Shown piece after piece: positions 14,129 through 61,794 of a stretch of DNA of 64,000 nt (the stretch's first letter is position 1; every line of letters begins with the position of its first letter). The notes under the pieces were generated by a model that searched no databases, was not told where the DNA came from, and saw nothing but the letters and a program-made list of their open reading frames with translations. Source of the stretch: Saxidomus purpurata. Lineage: Eukaryota > Mollusca > Bivalvia > Venerida > Veneridae. The stretch covers positions 17,784,814 to 17,848,813 of the forward strand of contig JAFMSR010000017.1 in NCBI GenBank assembly GCA_022818135.1. Direction: 5' to 3'. Position numbers and translations under genes: made by a program.

Positions 14129-14541
14129 ATCATCCACCAAGATTTTTGTTTGAGAAAGAGACTTCCAAAAGGTCGTATGAGGATGAGCTCTATGACATCA
14201 TAAACACTACAGCACAACAAAGACACAGCTTTGAAAATCTAAGAACTTTTGATACGCCCCACAGAACTGTAAACTTTCTGAACAGCCCTCATACAGCAAG
14301 CCAAGTTTCATCTGATCTGGATCCCATTCTGAGCATGGACCCAGTACCTGTGCAGAAAATTGGCGGTCTTTCATTGTATAAATGTGATGAATGCGGAAAG
14401 TGTTTCTCGAGGAAGGACTTCCTAAAGAGACATGCAATAATTCATACAGGGTTACGGCCCTATGTTTGTGACATTTGCGGGCGAGGATTTAATGTCAAGA
14501 CAAATCTAGCAGTACATAGGGCTAAAATACATAAAAACTGA
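14129..14541 (+). CDS. alternative last exon 1: two C2H2 zinc fingers
   Basis: A phase-1 exon opens after tttcaatttcag; 137 codons counting the split one, then TGA. This is the longest leader in the array (about 85 residues, acidic and polar, no motif recognised). Finger 1 spans about residues 86-106 (CDECGKCF...H-x3-H), with helix residues R/D/F/R at -1, 2, 3 and 6. The linker is TGLRP. Finger 2 spans about 114-135 (CDICGRGF...) with an H-x4-H end and helix residues V/T/N/V. Both fingers keep all zinc ligands. The product would be a sequence-specific DNA-binding tail for a nuclear protein encoded upstream. It is divergent from the other exons and closest to the damaged 10.8 kb remnant. Confidence 0.85.
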
Positions 14542-16133
14542 ATTTGACTTCAAAGACCAATACATTTACTTATGTATGGTGATTGAGGATGTTTGCCTGG
14601 AATTGTATACCTGTCAGATGCTCAGTTTAGACATGACCTCACCATATTTTGAAAACTGTATTGTTGTGACATTTAGCTCAGCTGGGCTGAAGGGGTCATT
14701 CAAATCATGCAAAACCTTGTTAACACTGGCAGCCCTTATGGCCAGAAACATGAAATGAATGTTGGTCTAGATTAAATCTGGGTTGGGGTTAAAGCTAAGT
14801 TATTAGAGGTGAAAGGTGTGGGTCAGATGTCAAAAAGTAGAAGCAAACTCTCACAAATCTTATAAATTATCCCCCATTTGTGGAATTTATTTATTCTGTC
14901 TTGGTCATATCTTATCACTTTCTGTGGTGGTCTTGCTAGCTAAAGAGGACTATAAGAAATGTTGTGTGCAACAGTTTATGTAATTGATCACCTGTTTTTG
15001 CCAAATTCTTGTCTTTACAAGACATGTAACTCTCTTACAAACTTTAGAGAAACATGTCTTTGGAAACTAATGTGTGTCTACGAACAGAAAATTCCTGCAT
15101 CAGTTTGTATAATGCAAATGAGGGTTGACTAAACAGTTTTGTAAGAAACATGTGGGTAAACATTCAGACAGTATAGTTTTGGACCACCCTTTTGAACAAC
15201 AAATTGTTCTGACAAAAATTCAGAGATGACAGTTAAGCAAGGCATGCCAAAGTTAATTTAGGGGTTACTATTATGTGGGTTGCATATATACTACCTGTGC
15301 TGATACCACAGAGTTACTTGCTGGTTGTGGGGGAGGGAAGGACGTGGTCTGTAGCTTGTGTAAAATAATGAGAGAAATCAAATTGTAAAAATTAACTTTT
15401 TTGATGAAACAAAAAAATTGTGAATGTTTATTTACGTCTATTTTCATACAAAAATCATTATAACAGAGAAGTAGACATAAACATGTATTCAGGTTGTAAG
15501 CATTTAGTAAAATGTTGAAACAGTTGCCATTGGTTATTTTTTAATGGACCCTTATCCTGCTGCAGACTACATTTAGACCAGTAGTACTTTTACCAGAAGT
15601 ACTTTTACCAGTCAGTTTATCATGATACCACTACTATGGTTGTAAATGCAAATTAATATATCCCATTAAATATAACATGTTTATGAATTCAAGAGTCAAA
15701 ACATGTAATGTCTTCACTGAAGAAGAAAAGTTCAAGGTAACTACATACACTGCAAACTGTTGCAGTTTGTAAAATTGATTGATATAAACTTGTCTAAGGT
15801 AAATTAAAAATTCTACATACAAACTGATCTACAATTTTTCAGTATGTTGAGCAGTGATAATAATGAAGTAATTGTATATTAATATAGTAACTTGTTAAGC
15901 AGTTTAAATATCTTAACAGCTCAGTTTGTGATGTTCTTGTGTATGATTGTATCTAGTTTGCTTACCGCTCAAAATAAATATAATTAATAATAACGTCTTT
16001 ATTTATTGTGGATGACATATTTGGTACAAAACCAATTTTCAACATGGTCCACATGATTTTCAACATGGTCCATAACATATAAAGATGAAATATAAAAATT
16101 GAAAGATTTAAAATCAAACATATTTACTTTCAG
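14542..16133 (+). other. 3' UTR and spacer
   Basis: No further finger code. 'gaccagtagtacttttaccagaagtacttttaccagt' near 15578-15612 is a small direct repeat. A pair of 'ttttcaacatggtccacatg' words lies at 16036-16072. An AATAAA at 15973 is far from the stop (about 1.4 kb), so its use is uncertain. Confidence 0.45.
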
Positions 16134-16510
16134 GTGAAATGAGGCTTCATACAGAACACATCTCTCAGACTTTATTACCAGCATTGATGAAACCACAGGG
16201 ATGGACCGGTACAACAGACGGTGCGTACATGCATCCACCCAGTGCAAACAACCATGGTGGATTACCCGTGCGCCATCCAACCTCAACTCTACCCAACAAG
16301 TTTATGAAGCATGTCTGTAATGTGTGTGGTAAATCATTTACAAAGGAATGGGGTCTTACTCTGCACATGAGAATACACACGGGAGAAAAACCACACGAGT
16401 GTCCAGTCTGTAAGAAAAGATTTTCTCAGAGTAACAACATGAAAACTCATCTCTTTAAGCACCAACACCCTTCACTGGCGGATCAGTTTATGGAAACAAA
16501 AATCACATGA
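16134..16510 (+). CDS. alternative last exon 2: two C2H2 zinc fingers
   Basis: The acceptor catatttactttcag is followed in phase 1 by 125 codons and a TGA. The leader of about 60 residues is rich in P, H, T and G. Finger 1 (about 62-82) reads CNVCGKSF with helix residues K/W/G/L. A canonical TGEKP linker follows. Finger 2 (about 90-110) reads CPVCKKRF with Q/N/N/T and a methionine in place of the core leucine. All ligands are present. A frame-internal ATG lies at codon 3, but the array pattern makes splicing to an upstream exon the better start. Confidence 0.87.
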
Positions 16511-16725
16511 GGTCAATATCTTGATTTATTGACCTGAGAAAGTAGCATCAAGATGCAGCAAGCACATATACATGTAACATTATAATGATATTTGAATTTT
16601 AGTGAAGTCAATATTTGGATTTATTGACCTGAGAAAGTGGCATCAAGATGCAGCAGGCATATAATATAGTGATATTTGAATTTTAGTGAGGTCAATATAA
16701 GAATTTGTTGACCTGGAAAAAGAAA
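16508..16725 (+). repeat. 2.4 copies of a ~90-bp repeat in a 3' UTR
   Basis: Starting at the stop codon, 'gaggtcaatat...ttattgacctgagaaagt.gcatcaagatgcagca' recurs at about 16604 and 16689. Each copy contains ggtcaata...tattgacct, a short inverted repeat able to form a hairpin in RNA. Confidence 0.8.
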
Positions 16726-17658
16726 TATGGACGGAGTCCAAACATGTAGTGTTAATTAAATGTCTATTAATAGCCTTGCATGCATCATGTATAAAAATAC
16801 CAGCATTTTGGCACCTACCTTAGCACATAATATGTGATATTTGTAATGTATAATAGTAAGAGATCACATTATACATTATTGAGGATGATTTTGCGATTCT
16901 ACATTTGACGTTGGAGATAAGAGAATTATTCAAGGAACCTTTTCATATTGTGAAATACAGAATCTATAGTAGCTTTCAGATAAATTGCTCTTCAAAATCC
17001 ATGTAGAGTTTATCCAAGATGGTATAACTAGTTTCAAAAGTCCAGTTCTTGTACTTACATGATCTTGATCTTCATTAAATCTGTTAGTAAATCTTTTTGT
17101 TTGGTTGGACCTGCACTAATTTGTAGAAAACATTTAATAACTTCATATTTTGTGTACTTCTGACCATTGTTAAGATTTGCTCATTATTGCTTATAATATA
17201 TTACTATATGTAAGAAAATCATGTACTTTGTTTTTATAAGCCCATCTCTAGTAGAAAGATTTACCTATGATTGGCTGTTGGACATCTGTCTGACATCTTA
17301 CATTGGCCACTCTTTTAGTTTGAATACCGTTGATCCTAACTGGTCACAATGGTTATGGGCATAAAATCTATGTTTTGACAAAAAGTCAAATCACCCCAGA
17401 CACTCTACAAAGTTGAGGACCATAATTTGCGTACATTTCATCAAAAGTATCACTGCTAACTCTGTGTCATCACCGAACCTTGTCAAACTGAAGCCCTTGT
17501 TCCCACACCGTAGAAAGATTTATCTTGTTTCTTTCAAGTTTTTAATGCCAAAGCATAAATTACTTTTGTTTTTTTGTGTTGTTTGCACTTTTGCTTACTT
17601 TTGTAAGGTTATTCATGAAATGTGACATATTTTAAAGGCTTTATTTTGTCTCCTTCAG
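16726..17658 (+). other. spacer/intron
   Basis: No gene recognised. It ends in ttattttgtctccttcag, the acceptor of the next finger exon. Confidence 0.5.
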
Positions 17659-18053
17659 CTTGGCCGTCCATGATAGCCGTGCAGGGTCCTTGGTCCCATG
17701 CATCACTTAAGCCGGGCTCAGGATGGTCACACGATCAAGTTACAATAGACCAGAAACCATCACCAACAGACCTGGCTGAACTGGGCCAAGCAGCACAAAC
17801 AGGGGAACCAGCCACACCAGCAAAACCAGTAAAAGCTTATTATTGTACATTCTGTGGCAAGGCGTGTAAATGGCCGTCAGATTTGGAGAAACATTTGAGG
17901 ATCCATACTGGAGATAGACCATACTCTTGTCTGATCTGTGGAAAGAGATTTATACAGAAGAGTCATGTAAATCCCCATATGGCTATACATATCAGGAGAG
18001 GGGAGATAATTCCTTCTTATTTTTCTGAAGGACATTCAGACTTAAACAAGTAA
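17659..18053 (+). CDS. alternative last exon 3: two C2H2 zinc fingers
   Basis: After ttttgtctccttcag the phase-1 frame runs 131 codons to TAA. The leader of about 60 residues is rich in P, S, A and Q. Finger 1 (about 63-83) is CTFCGKAC: the usual core phenylalanine is a cysteine, as in the last three exons of the array. Its helix residues are W/S/D/K. The linker is TGDRP. Finger 2 (about 91-111), CLICGKRF, has Q/S/H/P with valine in place of leucine. All zinc ligands are intact. Its first finger links it to the 56-62 kb group although it sits at the other end of the array. Confidence 0.87.
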
Positions 18054-19030
18054 ATGAAAGGAGTGACTCATAATTTCCTGATAATATACATTTTTAGTGC
18101 AATATTTTTAAGGACTTAATTTTACATAAATTATATACTTCATGGTTGAGCCATTTTATCAATCTTTTGTAGTAAAACAGATGGAAAAATGTCAAACTAG
18201 TAAAAGGAAAGACTTTGGTCAAGTGATCTGTCTAAATTAGCGATGATCTGATTGGCTAGAACTGTAGCTCAGTTTCAAAACTGTCCAGCGAGGATGGAAG
18301 CATAAGTTAAGACTGGTGTCAGAGAAAAGTTTTTAATAGGTCCCGGCTATACAATCATAGGCACATAAAAGTTTATAAGCACTAAATGTATCTTTATAGT
18401 ATATCACAGGGATTAACATCAGTGTACTACAGTAAAATTGTGAAAAGTAAAGACATACATGTATATAGTTTGTTCAGGGGAAAAGGTAAATTCTTGCTGT
18501 ATGAATTACACAGGAGTGATGAACTGATTGAAGCAGAAGTATGTTGTTTTAATAACTGTCTTGGAAAAACAATATTTGCATGTGAGAACAAGACATGTTT
18601 TGATGAAGACTGCAGATACATGTTTATGAAACTGACAATTTAATGCATTTAAATGAAGTGATTTTTCTATCTGAAAAAATCTTGTGCACTTAAGAAATTC
18701 AGAGAGAGCAATAATTATTGACTATAATTACAATGTTTTTAAATTAGAGGCTGGCCCATTTTGCATTTTTATCATGTGTTTGTATTATATTAAAGTTATT
18801 GTGACATGTAAAATAGCAAATAAAATATGATTAAAAACTGTTTTAGAGGATTATTTGTTGCTGAAAGTCGAGCTTCAACATGATGAGTGGTAAAACGGCA
18901 TTTTAGTGTAGTTATATAGCTTCATAAACCCCTGCAGATAAATCTTCACTCAGAGCTTTCTTTTTACTGTCAAAATGCAATTCATGATGCAAGTGAAGTT
19001 GCACTTGAATGATTGTGTATGTTATGATTT
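18054..19030 (+). other. 3' UTR and spacer
   Basis: No second gene supported. An 85-codon open frame at 18386-18643 has scattered cysteines but no finger spacing and no acceptor. An AATAAA at 18819-18824 lies about 0.77 kb after the stop and could end the exon 3 transcript. Confidence 0.45.
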
Positions 19031-20943
19031 TTATACCCCCGAAACGAAGTTTAGGGAGGTATATAGGAGTCACCCGGTGGTTGGTCGGTCCGGCGAGCAG
19101 GTCCGTTGCATTTTCCTTGTCCGGAGCATAACTTCATACAATGGCCAAGTACATTTGGAGGAAGTGCAGTGCACAAGAACCATAACTCCATCTTGACTAA
19201 TAACAGAGTTATTGCCCATTGTTACTTTTCCTTGTCCGGAACTTGAAAACTACTGGTTGGAATTCAATACAACTTCATACAATGGTCTAGCACAATAAGA
19301 GGAAGTACAGTGTACAAGAACCATAACTCTATCTTGAGTAATTACAGAGTTATTGCCCTTTGTTACTTTTCCTTGTCCGGAGCATGACTTGAAAACCACA
19401 GGTTTGAATGCAATACAACTTCATACAATGGTCAAGCACAATGAGAGGAAGTGCAGTGTACAAGAACCATAACTCTATCTTGACTCATTACAGAGTTATT
19501 GCCAGAACAATATCTCTATTTTATTATACCCCCAAAACGAAGTTTAGGGGGGTATATAGGAGTCACCCGGTGGTTGGTCGGTTGGTCGGTCGGTTGGTCG
19601 GTCGGTCGGTCGGTCGGTCGGGCGGTCTGTTGCATTTTCCTTGTCCGGAGCATAACTTGAAAACTACTGGTTGGAATTCAATACAACTTCATACAATGAT
19701 CAAGCACACTCAGAGGAAGTGCAGTGCACAAGAACTATAACTCCATCTTGACTAATTACAGAGTTATTGCCCTTTGTTACTTTTCCTTGTCCGGAGCATA
19801 ACTTGAAAACTACTAGTTGGAATTCAATACAACTTCATACAATGGTCAAGCACATTGAGAGGAAGTGCAGTGTACAAGAACCATAACTCCATCTTGACTA
19901 ATTACAGAGTTATTGCCCTTTGTTACTTTTCCTTGTCCGGCATAACTTGAAAACTACTAGTTGGAATTCAATACAACTTCATACAATGATCAAGCACACT
20001 CAGAGGAAGTGCAGTGTACAAGAACATAACTCTACCTTGAGTATTTACTGAGTTATTGCCCTTTGTTACTTTTACTTGTCCGGAGCATAACTTGAAAAAC
20101 TACTGGTTGGAATTGAATACAACTTCATACAATGGTCAAGCACAGTGAGAGGAAGTGCAGTGCACAAGAACTATAACTCCATCTTGACTAATTACAGAGT
20201 TATTGCCCTTTGTTACTTTTCCTTGTCCGGAGCATAACTTGAAAACTACTAGTTGGAATTCAATACAACTTCATACAATGATCAAGCACACTCAGAGGAA
20301 GTGCAGGTACAATAACTATAACTCTATCTTGAATATTTACTGAGTTATTGCCCTTTTACTTTTCCTTGTCCGGAGCATAACTTGAAAACTACTAGTTGGA
20401 ATTCAGTACAACCTCATACAATGGTCAAGTACATTTAGAGGAAGTGCAGTGCACAGGAACCATAACTCCATCTTGACTCATTACAGAGTTATTACCCTTT
20501 GTTACTTTTCCTTGTCCGGAGCATAACTTGAAAACTTCTGGTTGGAATTGAATACAACTTCATACAATGGTCAAGCACAGTGAGAGGAAGTGCAGTGCAC
20601 AGGAACCATAAATCCATCTTGACTAATTACAGTGTTATTGCCCTTTGTTTCTTTTCCTTGTCTGGAGCATTTTTTGAAAACTACAAGTTGGAATTCAATA
20701 CAACTTCATACAATGGTCAAGCACAATGAGAGGAACTTCTAAGAACAATATCTCTATTTTATTTTTTGCAAGGTATTTGTTCTACGAACTTCTTCAGTTT
20801 ATAAAGCAATCCTTTTGGGGGTATTAATCACATTTAGTGATAGCTCTAGTTTTTTTTGCAAGGTATTCTGTTACTACGAACTTCCTCAGTTTATAAAGCA
20901 GTCTTTCGGGGGTATTAATCACATTTAGTGATAGGTCTAGTTC
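19031..20943. mobile_element. 'tatacccccgaaacgaag' element with 146-bp tandem units
   Basis: It starts ttatacccccgaaacgaagttta and ends ctttcgggggtattaatcac, so the ends carry an inverted CCCC(C)GAAA / TTTCGGGGG pair. A second internal start lies at about 19523, followed by a (GGTC/GGTT)n run at 19571-19626. Inside, a unit of about 146 bp containing ttgtccggagcataacttga and 'ttcatacaatggtcaagcac' recurs about eleven times. It has no coding capacity and is a non-autonomous, tandemly expanded element. Confidence 0.75.
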
Positions 20944-22209
20944 TAAATGCATTGGAATTGTGTATAATTAGGGTTGGTGATGACTTGGTCATTTGTTTTG
21001 GTAGTCTTGCACAATGTTAGGCAGATCTTATTAGGTACAAATGGATAATAATTGAAGAAAAATAATACTTGTCTTGATTTTCAGCAATCTTGGTCATATT
21101 TCCACTCCCAACTACCATAACAAATGATTATAATTTATTAGTATGTGATTCCCAGTCCTAATATTGTTGAATAAGAGGGGTCAAAGTGAAATAATTTAAA
21201 AATAAATTAAAATTAAAATCAGATGTGAAGTTGATATAAAATTAAGATTGTCTTGTAATTTTCAAAACTATGTGTTATCTTTTCATAAGAATGGAACACA
21301 ATTATGTTTTTGTACATAGTTGTCATTTTGAAGAGGAAATAAAGCTTTTTGTGGAATTATCTTTGAAGATACAAAAAGAAGTTACCCAGGAGGTCACCAG
21401 GCCTTGCATAGGGCATCTGCACACTAGAAATAATATTAAATCCAGCAACAATATTGAACTTTATCTGCATTTTTACAGCATTAACATAATGATGGCAATC
21501 TCCATGGGCCAGTATAATGTTTCTGACAAATTTGAACAATTGTATTGAATACAACTCTTTAGAAAACAGTATTTTGTATGGTCTGATCAACGTGTTGCAC
21601 AGTTTGATCTTCTAGGAATTTCTTTCCAAGTTGCAAGAAAAAACTGGAATCAGAGTTTGCTTTCAGTAATGCTGTTGTGTCAATTGTTTCTTTACATTGC
21701 TTCCAAGTAGTAATATGTTGTGGGTTTTCGTGACAGTATTGGTAATTTGTAAGTGTACTAACCAGCCTTTCTGAGTGGAAAACCAACATTGTTAACAAGC
21801 ATTGTAAATATAATATGAATACACCAAATTGCATCTTTATTGATTCCAATGACGTAGGTAATGACCTTAATGTGTTACATGGTCATGCAACCAAAGGTAG
21901 TTCTTAAACAACATTCTATACTTAAGGACAAAAGTTGTGCACTGTATAAGTATTAAAACTAACGAAAAGCCGAAATCAGATAATGTTTATTTACAATTGT
22001 AAAAACATAAAAATCTCATCATTTTTCAAATTGACAGAGAAAACTACATTTTAAACTGTACTTTATCAATAACTCAAAATTTCATTAACAATTTCCGACC
22101 TGTGCAGTACTTTTGTCCTGAAGAATATAGTTCGTTAGTCATTAATTGATAAAGTTATATATCTTTGAAATTGCTATAAAAAAAATAAATGTCAATTTTT
22201 ATATTTCAG
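20944..22209 (+). other. spacer/intron
   Basis: No gene recognised. Open frames on both strands at 21270-21849 lack domains and acceptors. It ends with atttttatatttcag, the acceptor of the next exon. Confidence 0.45.
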
Positions 22210-22448
22210 TGTTCAATCAAAGCACAGATTGGGCACAAGATCCAACATATCAACCTACTAAGACCATGAGGAAGAAGGGCTGCGAAATTTGTGGAAAGAA
22301 ATTTTGCAATGATTCGTCCCTTGCAACTCATATGCGAATCCATACAGGAGATAAACCTTTTGTTTGTGGTGTATGTGGTAAAAAGTTTAACCAGAAGAGC
22401 AACCTGCGGTCCCATCAAGTGGTTCACATGAATGATTTGCCAACATAA
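22210..22448 (+). CDS. alternative last exon 4: two C2H2 zinc fingers
   Basis: Acceptor tttttatatttcag; phase 1; 79 codons to TAA. The leader is only about 24 residues ([11 protein letters not shown]...). Finger 1 (about 25-45) is CEICGKKF with helix residues N/S/S/T. The linker is TGDKP. Finger 2 (about 53-73) is CGVCGKKF followed by NQKSNLRSH, with Q/S/N/S. This is the first of six exons (22-36 kb) whose second finger has the QKxN signature. Both fingers are complete. Confidence 0.9.
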
Positions 22449-22581
22449 AGACTTGTCATTGCTATAAACAACATGAAACTTAAATTTGTGAAAGAAATGA
22501 AGTGGATTATGGTGCGCTGTTGTTATTTCATTGAAGTGAAGTTGTAATGTTAAAACAGTCAGGTTTTTATGTGTATACAGG

Positions 22582-23449: not shown

Positions 23450-23679
23450 ATCCTGACCTGTACACAATTAAGTTTGCACAAAAAAGGAAGCGCAAGGTAT
23501 GCGAGGTGTGTGGCAAATCTTTCCCGAAGCCATCGGCATTGGCGATGCATATGAGAGTGCATACTGGAGATAAACCGTTTGAGTGTAACGTCTGTGGTAA
23601 AAGATTTAATCAGAAAGGGAATTTAAAGGCTCATCAAGTAACACATTTGAAGATGGACGATGCTTTCATAAACAACTAA
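23450..23679 (+). CDS. alternative last exon 5: two C2H2 zinc fingers
   Basis: Acceptor ttattattttcag; phase 1; 76 codons to TAA. The basic leader is about 17 residues (KFAQKRKRK), possibly nuclear-localising, and has no methionine before finger 1, so the exon cannot be an independent gene without an upstream start. Finger 1 (about 18-38) is CEVCGKSF with K/S/A/M. The linker is TGDKP. Finger 2 (about 46-66) is CNVCGKRF plus NQKGNLKAH, with Q/G/N/A. It is very like the 27.6 kb exon. Confidence 0.9.
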
Positions 23680-27594: not shown

Positions 27595-27875
27595 TTTTCG
27601 TACACGAAACTGCTCAAGATGCTCAAATACAAGGTCATCAATATGTCAGCCTACCTGTGCCAAGGAGTGCCGAGATAGAAGTTCCTTCCGAATTTGAGAA
27701 CAAGATGTGTAAAGTGTGCGGCAAATTGTTTGCCAACCGAGCGGCACTTCAAATGCATACAAGAATCCATACAGGAGATAAACCGTTCGAGTGTAACGTA
27801 TGCCATAAACGGTTCAACCAGAAAGGAAACTTGAAATCCCATAAAATTACACACTTTGATATGAAACTAATATAA
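27595..27875 (+). CDS. alternative last exon 6: two C2H2 zinc fingers
   Basis: Acceptor taattgttatttttcag; phase 1; 93 codons to TAA. The leader of about 37 residues contains an acidic stretch (EIEVPSEFE). Finger 1 (about 39-59) is CKVCGKLF with N/A/A/M. The linker is TGDKP. Finger 2 (about 67-87) is CNVCHKRF plus NQKGNLKSH, with Q/G/N/S, almost the same as the 23.4 kb exon. The pair therefore differ mainly in finger 1. Confidence 0.9.
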
Positions 27876-29412: not shown

Positions 29413-29726
29413 GGTTCCACTTGTCAGTTTTACAACATGATGAACAAGAAAGTATTCTTCATTCTGTGACACCTGCTTCTACAGAACATACACTTGCCGG
29501 CTTTGGACGGCACCAGAACAAGATTTGTACCATCTGCAGAAAGATGTTTACCAGTCCGTCTGCGTTGAACGTACATATGAGATCCCACACAGGAGATAGG
29601 CCGTATGCATGTGAAGTTTGCGGGAAGAAGTTTAGTCAGAAATGTAACCTGAAGAAACATCAGGTGGTCCACGTCTCGGAGGAGGATAGAAGCAAGCTTC
29701 ACGTCAAAACTATGACTCTCTCTTAA
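29413..29726 (+). CDS. alternative last exon 7: two C2H2 zinc fingers
   Basis: Acceptor tttttgttttttgtag; phase 1; 104 codons to TAA. The leader of about 38 residues has no methionine, again requiring an upstream start. Finger 1 (about 39-59) is CTICRKMF with S/S/A/V. The linker is TGDRP. Finger 2 (about 67-87) is CEVCGKKF plus SQKCNLKKH, with Q/C/N/K: the variable position of the QKxN helix is a cysteine. A 17-residue basic tail follows the last histidine. Confidence 0.9.
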
Positions 29727-31904: not shown

Positions 31905-32925
31905 TAGAAATTTTTTTGACCTACAGCTCTCAAACTTCATAGGATGAATGGTCTATTGAGCAGATGATCCCTATTGTTTTTGGGGTCAGTAGTTCAAAGG
32001 TCAAGGTCACAGGACCGTTGGTCAATTTCGTTTCCGGATGATAACTAGAGTTCCTTTTGACCTACAGCCCTCAAACTTCATAGGAGATTGGTCTTATAGA
32101 GCTGAGATCCCTATTGTTTTTGGGGTCAGTAGGTCAAGGGGAAGTCAACTGACCGTTGGTCAATCTCGCTTCGGATGATAACTAGAGTTCCTTTAGACCT
32201 ACAGACCTCAAACTTCATAGGATGATTGGTCTTATAGAGCAGATGAGGTCCCTACCCTTTGGTTTTGGGGTCAGGGGGTCAAAGGTCAAGGTCACAGTGA
32301 CCGTTGGTCAATTTCTCGTGGATTTCGGATGATAACTAGAGTCCTTTTGACCTACAACCCTCAAACTGGGGGAGTCCGCCGGTCCGTCCGTCCATTCTTC
32401 GTTTCGGACGATGGTAACTAGAGTTCCTTTTGACCTACAGCTCTCAAACTTCATAGGATGAATGGTCTTATTGAGCAGGATGATCCCTATTGGTTTTGGG
32501 GTCAGTAGTTCAAAGGTCAAGGTCACAGTGACCGTTGGTCAATTTCTCGTTCCGGATGATAACTAGAGTTCCTTTTGACCTACAGCGGGGGGGCCTCAAA
32601 CTTCATAGGTGATTGGTCTTATAGAGCGATGATCCCTATTGTTTTTGGGGTCAGTAGGTCAAAGGTCAAGGTCATACTGACCGTTTGTCAATTTCGGTTC
32701 CGGTTGGGGATGATAACTAGAGTTCCTTTAGACCTACAGACCTCAAACTTCATAGGATGATTGGTCTTTTGAGCAGAGATCCCTAGTTTTTGGGGTCAGT
32801 AGTTCAAAGGTCAAGGTCACAGTGACCGTTGGTCAATTTCTCGTTATAATTTGGGGTCACTAACTCAAAGGTCAAGGTCATAAGGGGGGAGACAAGTTTT
32901 TTTGTGAAAAACAATCTCTAGTTTC
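31905..32925. repeat. ~145-bp tandem array with GGTCAAAGGTCAAGGTCA words
   Basis: About seven units share 'gataactagagttccttttgacctacag', 'ctcaaacttcatagga' and a 3' part 'ggggtcagta..tcaaaggtcaaggtcacagtgaccgttggtcaatttc'. Short G-runs disturb some units. It is non-coding. Each unit carries direct repeats of AGGTCA. Confidence 0.75.
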
Positions 32926-33292: not shown

Positions 33293-33558
33293 GTTTGAAT
33301 CAGCTAGATGAAGGTGATCTTGAGGACAATGTTTTACCTGATACTGCTGATGAGAGGCTGGAAGACATGGTGAACAAAAAATACAAGAGATGCTGTATGT
33401 GCGGAAAGAGGTTTCCTTCCCAGTCGTCGCTGGAAACCCACATGAGAGTTCATACAGGAGATAGGCCTTTTGCATGTGATGTCTGTGGAAAAAAGTTTAA
33501 CCAGAAAAGTAACTTGAAGAGGCATTTAGCTGTTCATATCACAGTAAAGGTAACATGA
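33293..33558 (+). CDS. alternative last exon 8: two C2H2 zinc fingers
   Basis: Acceptor tattttcatttcctag; phase 1; 88 codons to TGA. The leader of about 32 residues is strongly acidic (LDEGDLEDN, DTADERLED). Finger 1 (about 34-54) is CCMCGKRF with S/S/S/T. The linker is TGDRP. Finger 2 (about 62-82) is CDVCGKKF plus NQKSNLKRH, with Q/S/N/R. The code for the last helix and tail (33508-33555) is the founder of the minisatellite that follows directly, so the final six residues were partly shaped by that expansion. Confidence 0.9.
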
Positions 33559-34337
33559 CTGGGCATTTTGGTGTTCATACTTGAAGAGGCATTTCGGTGT
33601 TCATATCAGAGAAAAGTAACCTGAAGGGGCATTAATTAGGTGTTCATGTCACAGAAAAGTAACTTGAAGATGCATTTTGGTGTTTGTATCACAGAAAAAA
33701 AAATTGAAGACGCATTTTGGTGTTCATATTGTAGAAAGGTAACTTGAAGAGGATTTTCAGTGTTCATATCACAGAAAAGAAACTTGAAGAAGCATTTCAG
33801 TGTTCATATCAGAGAAAAGTAACTAGAGGAGGCATTTAGGTGTTCATATCACAGGAAAGTAACTTGAAGAGGCATTTAACTGTTAATATCTCAGAAAACT
33901 AACTTGAAGATGCATTTTGGTGTTCATATCAGAGAAAAGTAACTTGGAGAGGCAATTAGGTGTTCATATCACAGAAAAGAAACTTGAAGAAGCATTTCAG
34001 TGTTCATATCACAGAAAAGTAACTGGAAGAGGCATTTAGGTGTTCATATCACAGAAAAGGGGGGGGGGGTTTGGGGGTTTTTTTGGGGGGGGGGGTTGGG
34101 GGGGGGGGGTTTGGGGGTTTTTTTTTGGGGAGAGGTATTTGGGGGGGGATTTGTTGTTTTCTGGAAACTAACTTGAAGAGGCATTTAGGTGTTCATATCA
34201 CAGAAAAGTAACTTAAAGAGGCATTTAGGTGTTAATATCTCAGAAAACTAACTTGAAGAGGCATTTAGGTGTTCATATCTCAGAAATGTTACCTGAAGAG
34301 GCATTTCAGTGTTCATATCACAGAAAAGTGACTTGAA
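33508..34337 (+). repeat. 40-bp minisatellite derived from a zinc-finger helix
   Basis: The unit 'agtaacttgaagaggcatttaggtgttcatatcacagaaa' is the coding sequence of SNLKRHL.VHI in exon 8, repeated about eighteen times. Spacing is exactly 40 bases from 33780 to 34020 and again from 34170 to 34330. Forty is not a multiple of three, so it cannot extend the fingers in frame, and the exon stops within the second unit. The array is broken at about 34058-34165 by G and T runs. Confidence 0.9.
34058..34165. other. G/T homopolymer block, probable assembly artefact
   Basis: Long G-runs alternating with T-runs replace about two and a half minisatellite units. Repeat units resume in register afterwards. 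Confidence 0.65.
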
Positions 34338-34385
34338 GTCTTAGAAAGAAGATGTATCAGTGAGTAGTGCAAATGTAAGATTTAG

Positions 34386-36035: not shown

Positions 36036-36295
36036 ATATGTATCGAGATGTACGCCAATATTTTCCAAGTGGTTCCCGGTCCTTTTACAGTTCAAAGAAG
36101 ACTTTTACAAGACACAGAAATAAAACGTGTAATGTGTGTGGAAAGACGTTTATGAAGCCGTCAGCTCTTGACATACACATGCGAATTCATACCGGAGCAA
36201 AACCATATACATGTGAAATTTGCGGGAAACAGTTTAATCAGAAAAGTAACTGGAAGTCTCATCATGGGATTCACATGTTAGTGACTAAGAATTAA
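36036..36295 (+). CDS. alternative last exon 9: two C2H2 zinc fingers
   Basis: Acceptor tccttgcatctttcag; phase 1; 86 codons to TAA. The leader of about 30 residues is basic and serine-rich. Finger 1 (about 32-52) is CNVCGKTF with K/S/A/I. The linker is TGAKP. Finger 2 (about 60-80) is CEICGKQF plus NQKSNWKSH: the core helix leucine is a tryptophan, and the contact residues are Q/S/N/S. It is the last member of the QKxN group and the closest relative of the decayed exon at 44.2-44.4 kb. Confidence 0.9.
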
Positions 36296-43164: not shown

Positions 43165-44060
43165 ATCAAGTTATGAAACAGTTTCAACGAATCCAAAGAT
43201 TCCCATTGTGTTATTCTTGAATTTCTCTATAAAATAAATAAGTATGGAATATCAACTGGTGTCTCTCAATAAGGCAATACTAATGCTCTAAAACCTTCTA
43301 GACTCATTCTTAAAACAGGGCTGTGATAGTTCTGCGGATTCGCGGATTTCCGCGGGTCCGATCGGCCCGAGGGTCATTTTAGTGACTGACGTAAATCTGT
43401 TGAGAAATAAAAGTGCAAGCGTTCCATCAAAATATTTTTTTTTAAATCACAACCTACAAAAATTCCACATCTCTATGGCAAAAAGGCATCGAGGATATAT
43501 TTCTGAAAGAGACCGAATGAGGTCCGAGACTACTGAGGTTCGCCTTTTGAATGTGATTTACTTGATAAAGAGATTTAGAGGTATATCTATTCAGTTGTTT
43601 TTTAAAAAGGGGGTTTTTTTTTTTTTTTTAAATGGGTTTATTTCAATTATAAGGATTGTATTAGATATAATTCATTACATGCATGTATCTAATAGACTGT
43701 ATTACCATTAAAACACCTGTATTTATTGACTAGACTTAAGCGTATCACTTCTTTACTTCAGTGCTAAAATATAGTGGAGATTTATCATGGACATGAAGAT
43801 TTTAACTATGCTACTAACCATTGTATGAATTTGAAATTGAAATTTTTGTTTGATTGGAAATTATTTTACGACATTTAATAGGTTTAGTGTAAGAGTTAAG
43901 AGAACGTGTTCATCTGTTAAGGTACATTTATCTCTTTTTCCAGATACATGGTTCAGTCCACAAGAACAAGCATGTCTTCAGAAAGGACAGCTCCAGGGTG
44001 CTCAGAAGATATTTAGTATAAATCCAAAGTGTGTGTGCAAATTCTGTGGAAAGCCATTTC
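43165..44060 (+). repeat. segmental duplication, copy B
   Basis: Counterpart of 37660-38541. It contains one extra segment (about 43320-43400) with a GC-rich 'gcggattcgcggatttccgcgggtccgatcggcccgag' stretch that copy A lacks. Confidence 0.8.
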
Positions 44061-44218
44061 AGGACAGCTATGCGTTGAAAGTTCACGTAAGAATTCATAC
44101 AGGGGAAAAGCCATTTACTTGTAAAACATGTGGATTTAGTACAACGACCAAAGGAAATCTCAAATCTCATATAATGAAGCATTTGAAAACAGGTTTAGAA
44201 AAGGAATACATGGACTAG
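43944..44218 (+). CDS. alternative last exon 10: two C2H2 zinc fingers
   Basis: Acceptor ttatctctttttccag; phase 1; 91 codons to TAG. Leader of about 31 residues (DTWFSPQEQ...). Finger 1 (about 32-52) is CKFCGKPF with D/Y/A/V. The linker is TGEKP. Finger 2 (about 60-80) is [17 protein letters not shown]: the CGK.F core is replaced by GFST, and the contact residues are T/G/N/S. This second finger is nearly invariant in the next two exons. The truncated exon at 38.4 kb is its duplicate. Confidence 0.9.
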
Positions 44219-44235
44219 ACGTTGTGTTCGGAGTT

Positions 44236-46641: not shown

Positions 46642-46892
46642 CTACGGGGTACAGGTCACAAGAATTAGCTTATCAGCAGACGTCAAATTCCCAAAGTGCT
46701 CATGAAGTATTTAGTTTCACTCCAAAAATATGCAAATACTGTGGAAAGCCATTTTCAAGAAGCTATTCCTTAAAAGTCCATATGAGAATTCATACAGGAG
46801 AGAGACCATTTAGCTGTGAAATTTGTGGATTTAGTACAACGACCAAAGGAAATCTCCGATCTCACATGATGAAACATATCAAGAAAACTTGA
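46642..46892 (+). CDS. alternative last exon 11: two C2H2 zinc fingers
   Basis: Acceptor ttcattttttgtttccag; phase 1; 83 codons to TGA. The leader of about 29 residues (Q, S, T-rich) ends FSFTPKI, recalling the F(S/G).NPK of its sister exons. Finger 1 (about 31-51) is CKYCGKPF with R/Y/S/V. The linker is TGERP. Finger 2 (about 59-79) is [17 protein letters not shown], with T/G/N/S. A short repeat of 'gaccagaaacacattg' follows the stop (46897-46980). Confidence 0.9.
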
Positions 46893-50700: not shown

Positions 50701-50954
50701 ATACGCTGTGCATTTCCAAGGAATTACCTCATTGTCAGAAAGGAAGAACCGAAGAACTTCGGAGAATGTTTGGTTTTAATCCAAAGAACGCATGCAAGTA
50801 TTGTGGAAAGCCGTTTCCAAGCAGCGCTGCCTTAAATATTCATGTGAGAATACATACAGGGGAGAGGCCATTTACTTGTAAAGTGTGTGGCTTTAGTACA
50901 ACGACAAAAGGAAATCTCAAATCTCACTGGCGGACACATTTAAAGGAAAATTGA
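50701..50954 (+). CDS. alternative last exon 12: two C2H2 zinc fingers
   Basis: Acceptor tatgtctttctttcag; phase 1; 84 codons to TGA. The basic leader is about 31 residues ([11 protein letters not shown]..., ending FGFNPKNA), aligning with the 43.9 kb exon. Finger 1 (about 32-52) is CKYCGKPF with S/A/A/I. The linker is TGERP. Finger 2 (about 60-80) is [17 protein letters not shown], with T/G/N/S. It is the third intact member of the GFSTTT group. Confidence 0.9.
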
Positions 50955-52679: not shown

Positions 52680-53515
52680 CTATATTTTATACCCCCGCAC
52701 AACAAAGTTGTAAGGGGGGTATACTGGAATCAGCTTGTCCGTCCGGCCGTCCGGCTGTCCGGCTGTCCGTCGGTTTTTTCTTGTCCGCCCAATAACTTAA
52801 GATTCCTTTGACCCACACTCTCCAAATTTGGCATGGAGGTTAGTCATGATTAGTAGATGACCCCTATTGATTTTGAGGTCACCAGGTCAAAGGTCAAGGT
52901 CACAGGGGCCTTGACTATAAAAGCTTGTCTGCCCAATAACTTTAGATTCCTTTGACCCACAGTCTTCATATTAGGCATGGAGGTTAGTCATGATTAGTAG
53001 ATGACCCCTTTTGATTTTGAGGTCACTGGGTCAAAGGTCAAGGTCACAGGGACTTTGACTTGGAAAGTTTGTCCGCCCAATAACTTAAGAAACCTTTGAC
53101 CCACAGTCTTCATATTTGGCATGGAGGTTAGTCATGATTAGTAGATGACCCCTATTGATTTTGAGGTCACCATGTCAAAGGTCAAGGTCACAGGGGCCTG
53201 GACTTCAAAAAGCTTGTCCGCCCAATAACTTAAGATTCCTTTGACCCACAGTCTTCATATTTGACATGGAGGTTAGTCATGATTAGTAGATGACCCCTAT
53301 TGATTTTAAGGTCACCAGGTCAAAGGTCAAGGTCACAGGGGCCTGGACTTCAAAAAGCTTGTTTGTGTACTATTAAAACAATACATTTACACAACTTATT
53401 GTATAATAACTGAAATGTATGTCCTTGTGGCCATTCCTTTCTTATGGTTGCCATACTTCTGTGACAAAGCTGTATTGTGGGGGTATAATTCGTCACTCTT
53501 GTGACAGTTCTAGTT
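52680..53515. mobile_element. 'tatacccccgcac' element with ~148-bp tandem units
   Basis: It begins ttttatacccccgcacaacaaagttgtaaggggggtatac and ends attgtgggggtataattcgtcactcttgtgacagttctagtt, so CCCCC/GGGGG-TATA ends are inverted. Four to five internal units carry 'gcttgtccgcccaataacttaagattcctttgacccaca' and 'aggtcaaaggtcaaggtcacaggg'. It has the same architecture as the 19.0 kb element with a different unit, and is non-autonomous. Confidence 0.75.
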
Positions 53516-55584: not shown

Positions 55585-55800
55585 TGGAGCCGTCGTTGTG
55601 CAGTGGTAGTGCGTTCGCCTCCTAGTTTCCATCCCTACCATAGCCAGGTCCCGTAGTGTCCTTGGACAAGTGACAAATATTTCCACATTGCCGCTCTCTC
55701 TTCGAGGTTGATTACATCTGGAATGAGTCTCAAGAGCGGCATTTAATATAAGTTGTAAGAACTTGTTTCGCTATCTACTGTTGTTTGAACTATAAATACT
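55585..55800 (+). mobile_element. tRNA-derived SINE-like copy
   Basis: 'gttgtgcagtggtagtgcgttcgcctcc' resembles the A-box half of a tRNA; the B box is poor or lost. It is followed by 'ccttggacaagtgacaaatatttccacattgccgctctctcttcgaggttgat', which resembles the CCTTGGGCAAG...CACATTGC tail of widespread animal SINEs. It is truncated or diverged, and the family name is uncertain. Confidence 0.45.
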
Positions 55801-56268
55801 TGCTATATGTGAAAGGAGGACAAGTTTTCTAAATATGACAATAAAGACATTTTATAACGTTTTCTTGTCAGGATCTGTTTATCACACTATGTTGATTTGT
55901 CAAAAATTGTGTCGTTATGGGACAGGAAAGCTATTTCCAGGAACAATATTTCTTTTAAATTGTCCGTGGCTTTTTATGGGATGAAATTGTCCCAGAATCT
56001 CAGTTGGAATGAATTTTATTTATTCTCCACATCTTAAAGGGAAAGGGAAGTCAGAAAGTAATTTGACTTTGAATTTAATAACTTTTTAAGAGGAACATAC
56101 TGTTGAACGAATTTCTAAAATCGGATGATTAAATATTGAATATTGAAAAATTCCAAAATGGAGGATCAAGAAGCGGCCATTTTGAATTTGTGATGTCATA
56201 GTGCTGTAATTAAATATTCATGCAGGTATAAATGCTAAGATAAAAACGGCAGCATTTTTTTCTTTCAG
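55801..56268 (+). other. spacer/intron
   Basis: No gene recognised. It ends with catttttttctttcag, the acceptor of the next exon. Confidence 0.45.
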
Positions 56269-56498
56269 GCTATTCTTTGGTTTCCAGACGTAACCTTCCA
56301 GTGACATCTGTTTGTAAACCAATCAAATCGTATGACTGTAATGTGTGTGGAAAAATGTGTTCATCGAAGTGGAAGTTGGAGACGCATATGCGTATTCATA
56401 CAGGAGAGAAACCATTTTATTGTACAGTATGTGGAAAACGGTTCAACCAGAAGTCAAATCTGAAATCTCATCTCGTCCTTCATCATGCTCCAGACTGA
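56269..56498 (+). CDS. alternative last exon 13: two C2H2 zinc fingers
   Basis: Acceptor gcatttttttctttcag; phase 1; 76 codons to TGA. Leader of about 21 residues ([11 protein letters not shown]...). Finger 1 (about 24-44) is CNVCGKMC: cysteine replaces the core phenylalanine, and the helix reads SKWKLETH with S/W/K/T. The linker is TGEKP. Finger 2 (about 52-72) is CTVCGKRF plus NQKSNLKSH, with Q/S/N/S, as in the 22-36 kb group. First of three similar exons. Confidence 0.9.
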
Positions 56499-57657
56499 TT
56501 TAAAATAATCACCGAATTTAAACAATGTAAAAGGAACTGTTTTGTATTTTGTAAACATTAGAAAAATGTGCTCCATTTAAATGTCAAGACCAGTCAGTCG
56601 ATGTTTGAATACATGGCAACTCGTGGATTATACTTCTATCTTTTGAAAAACGTTTGGAATTCTCCCCTTTTCTAGTTACATCACAAAACTCAGTACCTGT
56701 TTATTTATAAACACAGCTTTAATAAGTAGTTATTCTTACCAATTAATCAGTTTTATTCAAATCTGATTATCCATAAACTTATAATGTGTTTGTGTCCGAT
56801 TGTTGGCTCGTCTGAATTTTAAGATAACAAATTCGGTCCTCCGCGAGGTGCAATGTCACCATAACTTCTGCATTGAGGACTGGTTCTTCTCTAATTATGT
56901 ACATGTAGTTCATAGCTAGGTCAGTTTCTTGCCTTATAATTAGTTTCGTTGTATACTCTTTTTTTTCAAAAGATGTTTGTAACTTGTTTTTATTGTGCAA
57001 TCCAATGCCTCTTTTTTCAAATTTGAGCACACGATAGAAGCGTGATTTTACACGATATGTTTTAGTACATGTTCAAATCAATCTCTGGTATTTAGTTTTA
57101 AGGAAATAACATTTGCATACTTTGTTTTATATTTCTCTGCATCAATTTTGTGACTTATTTCTACCATATATTTGACTATTCACCAATTTATTAATTTCTG
57201 TTTCTTGTTTGTCTTTGTCAAATTTATATATGTAAATTGAAAGAAAATAGCTTGACCGGAGAATAACTCGAAAACTATTGAACGGGCTAAGTTGATATTT
57301 ATACATCGATAGAGGTGCAGGGACCAAAAACCATAACTCTAGCTAACCCCGTTTTAGAATTATCCGCCTGTATGGCATGGAATCTTGCTTTTCTGAAACG
57401 TATTTCTAAAACTGTCAAACAGATATTGCACATAGTGAGAATATTTTTGAAATTCAACGCAGTTTCTAATGACCTTTACTCCTGTTTAATAGTTGAAATT
57501 AGGTGCAGTGTTCAAGAATCTTAACTTTGGCTGTCCTTATGGTTGAATTACGTTATTTTATTATTTTTATTTTGTTTGTCTACAATCGAAATTTTCACAC
57601 AAATGATTTGTTACTTCTTAACTATTCATTTGAAAGAACATACATTTGAAAACGCAG
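56499..57657 (+). other. 3' UTR and spacer
   Basis: No gene recognised. 57250-57520 has fragments recalling the 'accataactct' repeats ('gtgcagggaccaaaaaccataactctagc'). Confidence 0.4.
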
Positions 57658-57902
57658 GTTACCGATGCTCTAGTTTCTGGACAGAACCGTCTATGCAATT
57701 CATCAATACGGCAGGGGTGATGAAAAAGCACAGGAATGTTTTTGTACGATTACCTGTCGATTTCTTTGTAGAAATATATGTCGTGATAGGTTGTGATGAA
57801 ATAATGCCTTTGCCTGCGTGTAATATTTCTCTAAACGTACACGGGACAGGGGAAAACAGATTTGAAAAATATCACTGCAATCCAGTTAGTTTGATTATAT
57901 GA
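57658..57902 (+). CDS. possible fingerless last exon (uncertain)
   Basis: An AG at 57656-57657 (tttgaaaacgcag, poor polypyrimidine tract) is followed in phase 1 by 81 codons to TGA, beginning YRCSSFW, of a length like the finger exons. Two of the three neighbouring finger exons also begin with tyrosine after the split codon. Cysteines and histidines are present, and NVHGTGENRFE faintly recalls a finger linker, but no CxxC...HxxxH exists. It may be a decayed finger exon, a genuine fingerless terminal exon, or chance. Low confidence. Confidence 0.22.
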
Positions 57903-59159
57903 GACAGTTGACTGTGGAGTTTTGGTGGTGTGTGGTAAACTGTGTGCTTGCACATGTCTGGAATACTGTTGAAACCCTCCCACCCCCAAATAAGTAAGCA
58001 TGACGTGTGTATGACATAAACACTAAGTAGTACACGCCTTTATTGGTTTTCTTCTTGATGGAAATTCTTCATGTACCAGGACAGTTTATAGTCTGTCGTT
58101 CGAATTTTATATTGAACTAAATTGTTTCATCGCCTACGAGGATAGAAAATATATGTAGGGACATAAATTATTTTACATGGATTATTGAACGTATTTTCAT
58201 GGAGTAAACATTTTTTTTTTACTTGTAATAATACATGTTTCCAACGAAAGTGAATGTTAACTTAGTGGCGTGTTGAATATAAATGAACGGTGAGGCAGTG
58301 CTGTGCTCCGTACTGTCTGACTGCAGGTATATAGTGTATGAAAAATTGATAGTTACGTTTCTTTTGTTCCACTCAGTTTATATTAATGTACATGTAAATA
58401 TGTTTTGAATTAAACTTGTTCATCACAATGCGAAATGTTGTCCTTTATTGGTTGTGCAATCTTTTGAAAAAAAAGTAGCAGAACACTGTCATGAGTACTC
58501 TCTTTACTTGATGATCATATCTCTGCAGTGTTTCAGTACTGAGGTTACTGATAATAAGCTAAATCGAGCTTCTGTAGTGTTTAAACTTACAACTTTTCAG
58601 TAGTGGTCGATCCATGTCTTACCACCTGTGATGACGCAAGAAAACCGATTAAAAACCTTTCAAAGTGGCCATAATTTTAAGATAGAAATTTGACTCCGAT
58701 TTAATGGAAGAAATATGAATATTACCGAAGTTAATACTAAACATGGCAATATTTATCGAGGAATTAACGCGAAATTCTTCTAAGTGTATATAGAAATAGA
58801 AACAGGATAGTGAACCCTCGATATGTACTAGTGAGTTGTTGCGTACATATAATTATTTTAAAGCATGGATTGTGCTTTATTTGACCATATTACAGTATAG
58901 CCATTTTGCAGGATTATGTAACTTTTAGTATTTATTCAACAGTTAGACATCGAGGTATATCTTTATTCAAAGTTTAAGTCGCACGAAAGAAGGAATCTGA
59001 GGGGCAACCGAAGCTGGAAAACTATTTATTGAACCATGACTATAAATGTCGACCGTTTTAAAACGAAATACATTGATTAAGGATTCTTAGTTTGTGATAA
59101 GTTGTAGAATGTTGTCGTGTTTGGAATAAGGGGTAACTGATATCTTTATTGTTTTACAG
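57903..59159 (+). other. spacer/intron
   Basis: No gene recognised. It ends in atctttattgttttacag. Confidence 0.45.
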
Positions 59160-59401
59160 GTTATTCAGTGGATCGTGTTATGACAGGGATATCTGAAGAT
59201 GCTCATCGTATCAGAGTGTTTATTTGCAATATTTGCGGGAAAGGGTGTCCTTCCCAGTGGAAGTTAGACAGACATATGCACACACATACAGGGGAGCGGC
59301 CATTTGAATGTGGTGTGTGCGGTAAAAGATTTACACAGAAAAGTAACATGAAATCACACCAGAGCAGGAACCATCCCGGTGTGTTTAATGAGAGAAGTTG
59401 A
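59160..59401 (+). CDS. alternative last exon 14: two C2H2 zinc fingers
   Basis: Acceptor tctttattgttttacag; phase 1; 80 codons to TGA. Leader of about 20 residues (YSVDRVMTGISED...). Finger 1 (about 23-43) is CNICGKGC with SQWKLDRH, residues S/W/K/R, again with cysteine in the phenylalanine position. The linker is TGERP. Finger 2 (about 51-72) is CGVCGKRF plus TQKSNMKSH and an H-x4-H end (HQSRNH). All ligands are kept. Confidence 0.9.
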
Positions 59402-60306
59402 GAAGGAACTAAACTTGAATGCTAAATGAAATATAAGACTTGCTCACCAGAAGTGACATGTGTTTTGTGAGTTTTTTTGTCGGTGAATTGTATTTGTCGT
59501 GTTTTTTTTCTTTATATATCATTTTTCAATTACAATTACTACTATTAAGTTATTAGTATGTTTTCAAACTGTATCCAAAGAATGAGCACATTTAGGGAAA
59601 AAAAATTGTGCAAGCGTAACACTAGCTTCCATGATTATAGTTTACTTAAGTACTTTTTCTCAACGATACATAACGCAATAAGTTCATTGCAATTAAAAGA
59701 CTTTAATTACTAGCAGTTGTTATTGCTGTTAAAATGCAACTATTCCGTGGAGATAGTTTGAAAATGGAAACGTAAAAGAAAAGCGACTACGCTTGATTTG
59801 AAATTTGTTTTCACTAATTGTTAAAAATATAATGCAAGATGAAGAAAATAATCTGGTATTGAAAACAGACATGTATCTATAAGGAAATACATTGTATCTA
59901 GAAACGTATAAAAACATTCTATATTGATACAAAGAATTTTGGATATAGCGAAAGAAGTCATGAGAACACTGAAGGATTTCGTCACAAGCGTGCTCCTGTG
60001 GATATGGTTACACAATCGACATCAATGATATATTTGAAATTTACATAGATTATACAGGTTAACCAAGCATCGATATTTTATGAACGATTGTATAGAACTT
60101 GCTCCAGTATGTGTTGAGCTGATACTTCTATGTGAAATGTTATGAAACAACAATTTGCTGATAATATACGGATACCAATGACTTTTACACCAACCATATC
60201 GTGACCTTTAAAGTTTTTAAATAATCGTTTTCCTTAAAAATATTAAGACTGATATAGCAAATGAATTGATAAAATTTATATTATGTTTATATTGTGTGCT
60301 TCCAAG
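59402..60306 (+). other. 3' UTR and spacer
   Basis: No gene recognised; AT-rich. Confidence 0.4.
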
Positions 60307-60337
60307 CTTCTTCTTCTTCTTCTTCTTCTTCTTCTTC

Positions 60338-60397
<60 letters not shown>

Positions 60398-60454
60398 TTC
60401 TTCTTCTTCTTCTTCTTCTTCTTCTTCTTCTTCTTCTTCTTCTTCTTCTTCTTC
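60307..60454. repeat. compound trinucleotide microsatellite (CTT)n(CAT)n(CTT)n
   Basis: About 11 CTT, then about 19 CAT, then about 19 CTT repeats, nearly uninterrupted. Long open frames on both strands here are artefacts of the repeat. Confidence 0.95.
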
Positions 60455-60610
60455 AAGGTCTTAATATCTCACACAACAATTTATTTAAACCAGTCAGAGA
60501 TGGCAGTCCCTGTTCTTGTGACAACTTACATTTTGTGAGCGAGCTATTCTACACCGTTATACTTTAATAACGCAACACTTGGATAACCCTCTTTAAAAAT
60601 AATGTATTTA

Positions 60611-60827
60611 ACAATATTAAATGAAAACCTATTTAGTATAGAAATTAATTTTTATCTAGTATCACTGTTGTAACCAAACATTCAATATTTGGTATAGCCA
60701 ACGTTAGCGTGAATGTAGGCCACATTTTGAAATTTGTGTTAATCATTATTGGGCTGCTGTTAAATTTGGACACAACAGTGATACTAGATTAAATTTCTAT
60801 ACTAAATAGGTTTTCATTTAATATTGT
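60611..60827. mobile_element. MITE with ~56-60-bp terminal inverted repeats
   Basis: ACAATATTAAATGAAAACCT... (60611-60671) is matched by its reverse complement at 60772-60827, with one indel of five bases. TTA flanks both ends as a direct repeat, a three-base target duplication typical of PIF/Harbinger (Tourist-like) elements. The internal 100 bp has no coding capacity. Confidence 0.75.
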
Positions 60828-61552
60828 TTAATAAACCATTTTTACAGAGTTTTTTTTCCAATTGTTGAATTGGTGCTCGTGTCAGCGCCGGAACAATATA
60901 TATCTCTGTCGCTTCAGTTTAAACTTCAGTATAGTGTTAAGTCAGAATTTGGTTGAAATTCCCGGTAATATAGTTACAAGCTTTCGATATGTGAAAGCTG
61001 AAGTAGCCACTAGTGAAAGTCACGCTTATTCTCTTAACTAACGTGTTGCTGATAACTGTTTTGAATCTTGATTTTGTTGAGTGCCAATGTTATTGGTAAG
61101 AAGTAGCAATTTGTCTCTGATCTCTTACCATAATGTTGGTTTCGGTCTTTTTGATTATCGTTTGATATATAAAGAAATATGGTGTTTGTCGCTTGATGAA
61201 ACCAGCAATTATTTAGATGGGCATTTTCTAGAAACGATGAACGCCAATGCAAATTCCCTGTGCAAAACAAAGTACAAAACAGATCTTAGAGGCCAAATTC
61301 ATACATACATGTAAGCAAATACTTGTATTTAAACGCAATAACTGCCAGTCAGCCATTTGAAATTTGTTAGCGACACCCTCATATATAAATATGTATGATT
61401 GACAATACATACTATTTTATATGAAACTTCTTATAGTCCCTTGATTAAAGTCTCTTGGTTGATACTAGTATTAGATATTTTATGTATTTAGTATAGAAGA
61501 ATGTAGATTTTAAAAATCCAACTAGTTAACGTCTTCTATTTATGAATTTCAG
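60828..61552 (+). other. spacer/intron
   Basis: No gene recognised. It ends with gtcttctatttatgaatttcag. Confidence 0.45.
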
Positions 61553-61794
61553 ACATACATTGGCTTGCGCCACAACAGGTATCTATGGCTACAGGACAGC
61601 TACCAACAGTGAAGGGGAGAATGAACGTGTACATATGTAACATGTGCGGTAAAGTATGTTCATCCAACTGGAAGCTGCAGAGACACGAACGCACGCACAC
61701 TGGAGATCGACCTTACGCCTGTACCTTATGTGATAAACGTTTCATTGAGAACAATAAGTTGAAGGCTCACATGATTACTCACATGAAATATTAA
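61553..61794 (+). CDS. alternative last exon 15: two C2H2 zinc fingers
   Basis: Acceptor cttctatttatgaatttcag; phase 1; 80 codons to TAA. Leader of about 26 residues (IHWLAPQQVSM...). Finger 1 (about 29-49) is CNMCGKVC with SNWKLQRH, residues S/W/K/R, and cysteine in the phenylalanine position. The linker is TGDRP. Finger 2 (about 57-77) is CTLCDKRF plus IENNKLKAH, with E/N/K/A. It is the only finger 2 from 22 kb onward that breaks both the QKxN and TTKGN signatures. An in-frame ATG at 61585 exists, but the phase-1 pattern favours splicing. Confidence 0.88.

Follow-up and report, generated by a model that had tools for sequence, protein, structure and literature searches.

Two convergent clam genes that look like constant N-termini with arrays of alternative two-zinc-finger last exons

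We analysed a stretch of 64,000 nucleotides from the clam Saxidomus purpurata (the window; C17:17784814-17848813) that contains fifteen short exons, each encoding a pair of C2H2 zinc fingers. These exons very probably form the middle of a single transcription-factor gene whose N-terminus is constant and whose last exon has 34 alternatives. Together with the flanking sequence, they look like one half of a convergent gene pair in which a common N-terminus is followed by alternative last exons, 34 in one gene and 30 in the other. All coordinates are those of the window (genome position = 17784813 + window coordinate, contig C17, + strand). The region analysed is the window plus 100 kb on each side (264 kb), and the genome searched comprises 1.135 Gb.

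Finger exons and common exons of the two genes

A six-frame scan with a C2H2 pattern (C-X2-4-C-X12-H-X3-5-H/C, usually with a TG(E/D)(K/R)P linker) identified 15 finger pairs in the window, all on the + strand; two minus-strand and two further plus-strand spacing matches (50038/50041 entered twice) are not finger-like. The sequence-only reading had described fifteen intact two-finger exons on one strand, and each indeed has its own stop and an acceptor of the same phase. At all 15 chosen acceptors, two nucleotides precede the reading frame, which corresponds to a phase-1 intron, and several exons also have weaker AGs in the same or other phases. Pfam searches with 5 of the 15 exons returned zinc-finger families only.

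14129..14541, + strand: alternative last exon 1 of the window (leader, two C2H2 fingers and stop; placed by scan, acceptor and stop)
16134..16510, + strand: alternative last exon 2
17659..18053, + strand: alternative last exon 3
22210..22448, + strand: alternative last exon 4
23450..23679, + strand: alternative last exon 5
27595..27875, + strand: alternative last exon 6
29413..29726, + strand: alternative last exon 7
33293..33558, + strand: alternative last exon 8
36036..36295, + strand: alternative last exon 9
43944..44218, + strand: alternative last exon 10
46642..46892, + strand: alternative last exon 11
50701..50954, + strand: alternative last exon 12
56269..56498, + strand: alternative last exon 13
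59160..59401, + strand: alternative last exon 14
61553..61794, + strand: alternative last exon 15

Beyond the window, a finger-pair profile added 16 exons on the left and 3 on the right to the same-strand set and revealed 30 in the opposite orientation. The same-strand array extends from about -28.9 kb to +69.7 kb and holds 34 exons, and the opposite-strand exons span 71.6 to 140.7 kb. The earlier count of fifteen members, and the claim that none lies on the opposite strand, therefore describe the window and not the locus, as the first opposite-strand exon starts about 7.6 kb past the right end. Only intact pairs are included in the total of 64 (34 + 30), and the C2H2 pattern itself recovers both fingers in 63 of them.

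These 64 exons share one architecture. When acceptors were ranked by a simple score of our own and phase was disregarded, the best-scoring acceptor fell in the same phase (two bases left) in 64 of 64 exons; because 176 other open frames of the region divide 51/63/62 over the three phases, the shared phase is not due to chance. Translation stops soon after the second finger (the tail has a median of 7 codons and is at most 33), and a GTRAG between finger 2 and the stop occurs in a single exon, in another phase. The leaders of 30 exons contain no in-frame methionine before the fingers, and those exons therefore need an upstream coding exon. The DNA-contact residues are all distinct in the 63 readable exons (63/63), with Q, N and S at positions -1, 3 and 6 of finger 2 in 10 exons.

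By comparing open frames to the left of the + array with those to the right of the - array, we found three coding stretches, besides repeats, that are common to both flanks, on the + strand at the left and on the - strand at the right.

Common exon a, + gene: -42198..-42109, + strand, starts with ATG
Common exon b, + gene: -41297..-41141, + strand
Common exon c, + gene: -40571..-39792, + strand, donor A|GTAAGT in phase 1
Exon a, opposite-strand gene: 161947..161858, - strand
Exon b, opposite-strand gene: 157003..156847, - strand
Exon c, opposite-strand gene: 150717..149896, - strand

The + gene has its common part some 40-42 kb to the left of the window, and the opposite-strand gene has its own to the right of its 30 finger exons. 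Joined, exons a, b and c give 342 codons in the + gene and 356 in its paralogue, each plus one base. The splice sites are consistent in both genes (a-b in phase 0, b-c in phase 1, exon c donor in phase 1), and the donor of exon c fits every acceptor of the array. The proposal of alternative 3' ends on a common N-terminal part, for which a shared exon ending in phase 1 was to be sought on the left, thus gains support from candidate exons with a GTAAGT donor and from a paralogous gene with the same plan. The exons, their phases, stops and donors, the paralogy of the two genes and their order along the strands are direct observations.

The two common proteins agree at 73% of 330 aligned residues. 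Exons a and b together are 84% identical between the genes, with a synonymous divergence (dS) of 2.8; dS is 0.20 at the end of exon c, a disparity that suggests gene conversion there. The 342-residue protein of the + gene has a conserved N-terminal block that corresponds to no known domain, followed (by eye) by a charged stretch and a long acidic serine-rich linker, which is probably disordered and contains short lysine motifs of SUMO-site type. A loose pattern finds 3 such putative sites in one of the two proteins and 4 in the other (for example IKIE, VKSE and VKLE).

The sequence-only reading had further taken the common part to be a BTB domain, and this candidate had to be abandoned after Pfam, PDB and own-profile searches. 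Both common parts (342 and 356 residues) gave nothing better in Pfam than an expectation value (E) of 0.25. The lowest E values in PDB were 0.53 for the first 102 residues of one common protein and 0.49 for a 54-position profile. Eight BTB exons of this genome, among them one identical pair, were built into a BTB profile, which detected nothing in the 264 kb (best E 0.21), and the nearest BTB matches on the contig, among the best 150 of 363 candidates scored, lie about 2.1 and 3.7 Mb away. Elsewhere in the genome, partial BTB frames covering the first ~70 profile positions form clusters at C13:6607317-6673448, C1:38931438-39057994, C12:44655431-44761741 and C19:27483460-27712750.

From this layout we infer how transcription, splice choice, DNA binding and the function of the N-terminus may fit together. 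A common pre-mRNA would begin left of the window, and the exon c donor would be joined to one of the 34 acceptors. The chosen exon would supply the leader, the two fingers and the stop, with the RNA cut after that exon. All isoforms would then share one N-terminus, which would bind partners or effectors, and vary in their DNA-contacting residues. The paralogous gene runs toward the + gene from the opposite strand, with 30 last exons of its own.

A family of loci and the history of the arrays

Copies of the common exons occur elsewhere in the genome. The end of exon c has 14 genome matches, 11 of them on C17, and exons a and b have 55, of which 35 were counted as exon b (16 on C17). Judged from these matches, the common exons belong to a family most of whose members are on one chromosome. 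Six exon-c copies were examined, those of the two genes, a near-identical copy and three more, and all six end in a phase-1 GTAAG donor.

The finger exons follow the common exons. In a genome search with one finger exon, 150 of 2576 candidates were scored (151 matches reported, 150 used). Among frames of at most 180 residues, 125 of the 138 listed matches follow a common exon on their own strand at a distance of at most 160 kb and make up 13 groups; both limits were set after the match list had been viewed. The two genes described here account for 35 of the 125, and two groups (both on C4) consist of a single match. For comparison, random places on C17 give 3%, flipped strands give 33/138 and only 1 of the 12 long frames has such a neighbour. 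At the C17:20.6 Mb locus, the 30 kb downstream of exon c contain six two-finger exons, all in phase 1 (6/6), and one multi-finger frame at C17:20.619 Mb, whose frame-opening acceptor is in phase 1 (3/5 rows) and whose internal AG is in another phase (2 rows).

Close to the window, the exon c and finger exons of 17.85-17.94 Mb recur at C17:17583066-17631000, as seen from paired finger-match scores. The copy of the exon-c stretch near 17.599-17.631 Mb is 98% identical over 2483 bases. The repeat at 17.58-17.63 Mb is perhaps a recent duplication or an uncollapsed second haplotype.

Within the two genes, the most similar exon is a direct neighbour for 30 of 64 exons (2.0 expected; maximum of 9 in 2000 shuffles) and shares their strand for 57 of 64, from which we conclude that the arrays have grown largely by local duplication. 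Among the 25 closest pairs, dS could be measured in 8, in which the ratio of non-synonymous to synonymous divergence (dN/dS) ranges from 0.10 to 0.54; the other 17 are saturated. The exons thus appear to be old yet intact, which argues for their use.

The mollusc setting supposed earlier is plausible, as the first two of the best 120 listed proteins are models from Mya arenaria, with Dreissena among those below. Six models from Mya arenaria and Dreissena polymorpha (P0004, P0005, P0009, P0117, P0032 and P0051) are runs of two-finger units with leaders. The units of P0004 (5 units) and P0032 (4 units, one tie) follow the order of the opposite-strand gene, with 0/10 and 0/6 inverted pairs. P0004 follows the order of the + gene as well (0/10, one tie), so that it has no power to tell the two genes apart. 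P0005, P0009 and P0051 depart from the order of the opposite-strand gene (3/6, 5/10 and 3/3 inversions), and P0117 gave one unit only. Conservation of exon order across bivalves is therefore no more than hinted at.

Alternative explanations and known systems

Several results weigh against a single gene with 34 alternative ends. From exon c it is about 10.9 kb to the first exon of the array and about 109 kb to the last, which would require a long transcription unit. An in-frame methionine is present in 34 of the 64 leaders. The poly-A signal is not enriched after the stops (AATAAA within 600 bases in 48%, control 53%; AATAAA and ATTAAA together within 400 bases in 61%, control 55%). Of 3150 candidates in the protein database, none matched the joined leaders with an E of 1 or below. 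Finally, 13 of the 138 short-frame matches lack a same-strand upstream common exon, although 10 of these are at 17.599-17.631 Mb, apparently in the duplicate segment. A search for a common intron motif before the acceptors gave only weakly enriched k-mers (the top 6-mer in 6/64 exons), along with a T-rich tract and TTTCAG.

The long distances could be bridged by trans-splicing, if groups of last exons had promoters of their own and were joined in trans to the a-b-c RNA, perhaps even between the two genes. Because both donors and both arrays use one phase, any of the 64 ends could fit either start. There is precedent at Drosophila mod(mdg4), where exons lie on both strands and ends are trans-spliced: PMC12692577 gives more than 30 mRNAs, all of them trans-spliced, and in PMC4528330 at least 18 isoforms appear to be so. 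In the clam, each array lies downstream of its own common part on the same strand, which is enough for cis-splicing, and the opposite-strand exons have an a-b-c of their own. We consider trans-splicing unlikely here.

Splicing of the exons in series into one or a few poly-finger proteins is suggested by the Mya arenaria and Dreissena polymorpha database models, which string two-finger units together. When the donor rule is relaxed, a donor-like GT turns up close to the stop in 3 of the 15 window exons, but no such site combines phase 1 with a position ahead of the stop. As every exon stops just after finger 2 and the only GTRAG before a stop is in the wrong phase, we regard this arrangement as very improbable. 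The fused models are annotated as single proteins, unlike the isoforms proposed for the clam, and look like gene-prediction artefacts that skip stops.

Equally hard to sustain is the view that the finger pairs are numerous small genes, independent of one another and equipped with private promoters and 5' exons. Clustered C2H2 genes with effector domains such as KRAB or ZAD are of this kind, each finger array having its own start exon and effector domain. The leaders with an in-frame methionine would be compatible with it, and private 5' exons may exist between the finger exons. Yet the leaders without methionine speak against it, as do the acceptor phase common to all 64 exons and the position of the arrays, which at many loci follow a-b-c on a single strand. 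That the arrays are decayed, functionless copies is scarcely credible: one degenerate copy (10780-10845) and a possible duplicate segment elsewhere would fit, but 64 open frames have kept intact acceptors despite synonymous saturation in most of their closest pairs, and dN/dS in the others speaks the same way.

The constant N-terminus with alternative last exons has its nearest parallels in Drosophila. One acceptor phase is shared within the lola and mod(mdg4) genes, and the clam arrays agree with this in that all 64 last exons have one phase and their own stops and a same-strand upstream exon of matching phase is present. PMC11426971 describes about 20 lola isoforms with a TTK-type BTB start, 17 of the 20 with different C2H2 ends, and its title calls the TTK-type BTB domain Arthropoda-specific. 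The mod(mdg4) start is also a BTB domain, and most of its isoforms have FLYWCH domains (PMC11426971, PMC12692577, PMC4528330). The clam locus resembles lola in joining a constant N-terminal part to alternative C2H2 last exons; unlike lola, no BTB was found at it, its ends number 34 + 30 and it belongs to a family of such loci. With mod(mdg4) it shares more than 30 alternative 3' ends on a common part and exons on both strands, but the clam opposite-strand exons have their own paralogous start. Because the BTB test failed, we conclude that the clam locus works like lola and mod(mdg4) but is not a member of that group.

Drosophila broad, which is likewise described as a constant part with variable zinc-finger domains, uses a two-finger unit with few alternatives; its constant part, unlike that of the clam genes, is a BTB domain. 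Clustered protocadherins obtain a repertoire from the same choice of one exon from many, but in the opposite order, with variable exons first, each with its own promoter, and constant exons last. The titles and abstracts listed in searches of the open literature described no such arrays in molluscs, subscription papers being mostly outside this search.

If the clam genes are transcribed as proposed, a bivalve has reached the lola/mod(mdg4) plan independently, with a non-BTB N-terminus and on a larger scale. Swapping of DNA-binding ends through the last exon would then be a recurrent way to multiply transcription factors, and dozens of distinct DNA-binding proteins could come from just a few genes. 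The gene models published for related bivalves may in that case merge many isoforms into false poly-finger proteins. The locus would also offer a natural test of how one splice donor picks among 34 acceptors over ~100 kb.

More tentatively, about a dozen paralogous loci on C17 could share the same new N-terminal module, with up to 34 two-finger ends each. More than 100 and perhaps several hundred specificities might then arise from a handful of promoters, chosen by cell or stage, perhaps with trans-splicing between neighbours. Exchange between neighbouring genes is conceivable because the donors and two-finger acceptors that we checked are all in one phase.

Other features in and near the window

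A profile of the 15 finger pairs detects one more, degenerate copy in the window, along with weak matches, many of them inside a minisatellite.

10780..10845, + strand: degenerate 16th copy, only the second finger recognisable

The first finger of this copy is unreadable, and the stretch is of low complexity and possibly error-laden.

The absence of other intact genes among the exons, which the sequence-only reading had asserted, was borne out for ten of the longer other frames in 14129-64000, none of which has a Pfam family over the cut-off (best EpoR_lig-bind, E 0.013). To the left of the array, an open frame on the - strand (2711-3331) encodes a YqaJ viral-recombinase-type nuclease domain (E 1.5e-12) and is probably a mobile element. 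Between exon c and the array, a + strand open frame of 348 residues (L015, about -36912..-35869) looks like a Crypton/KIAA1958-type recombinase.

Directly after exon 8, a 40-base minisatellite occupies 33579-34338 in about 19 copies. Its unit matches the finger-2 coding sequence of exon 8 at 45 of 48 bases, and it is apparently a tandem repeat derived from a coding exon. Satellite-like arrays with units of ~137-146 bases lie between the exons at 19130-20735, 31914-32845 and 52780-53362.

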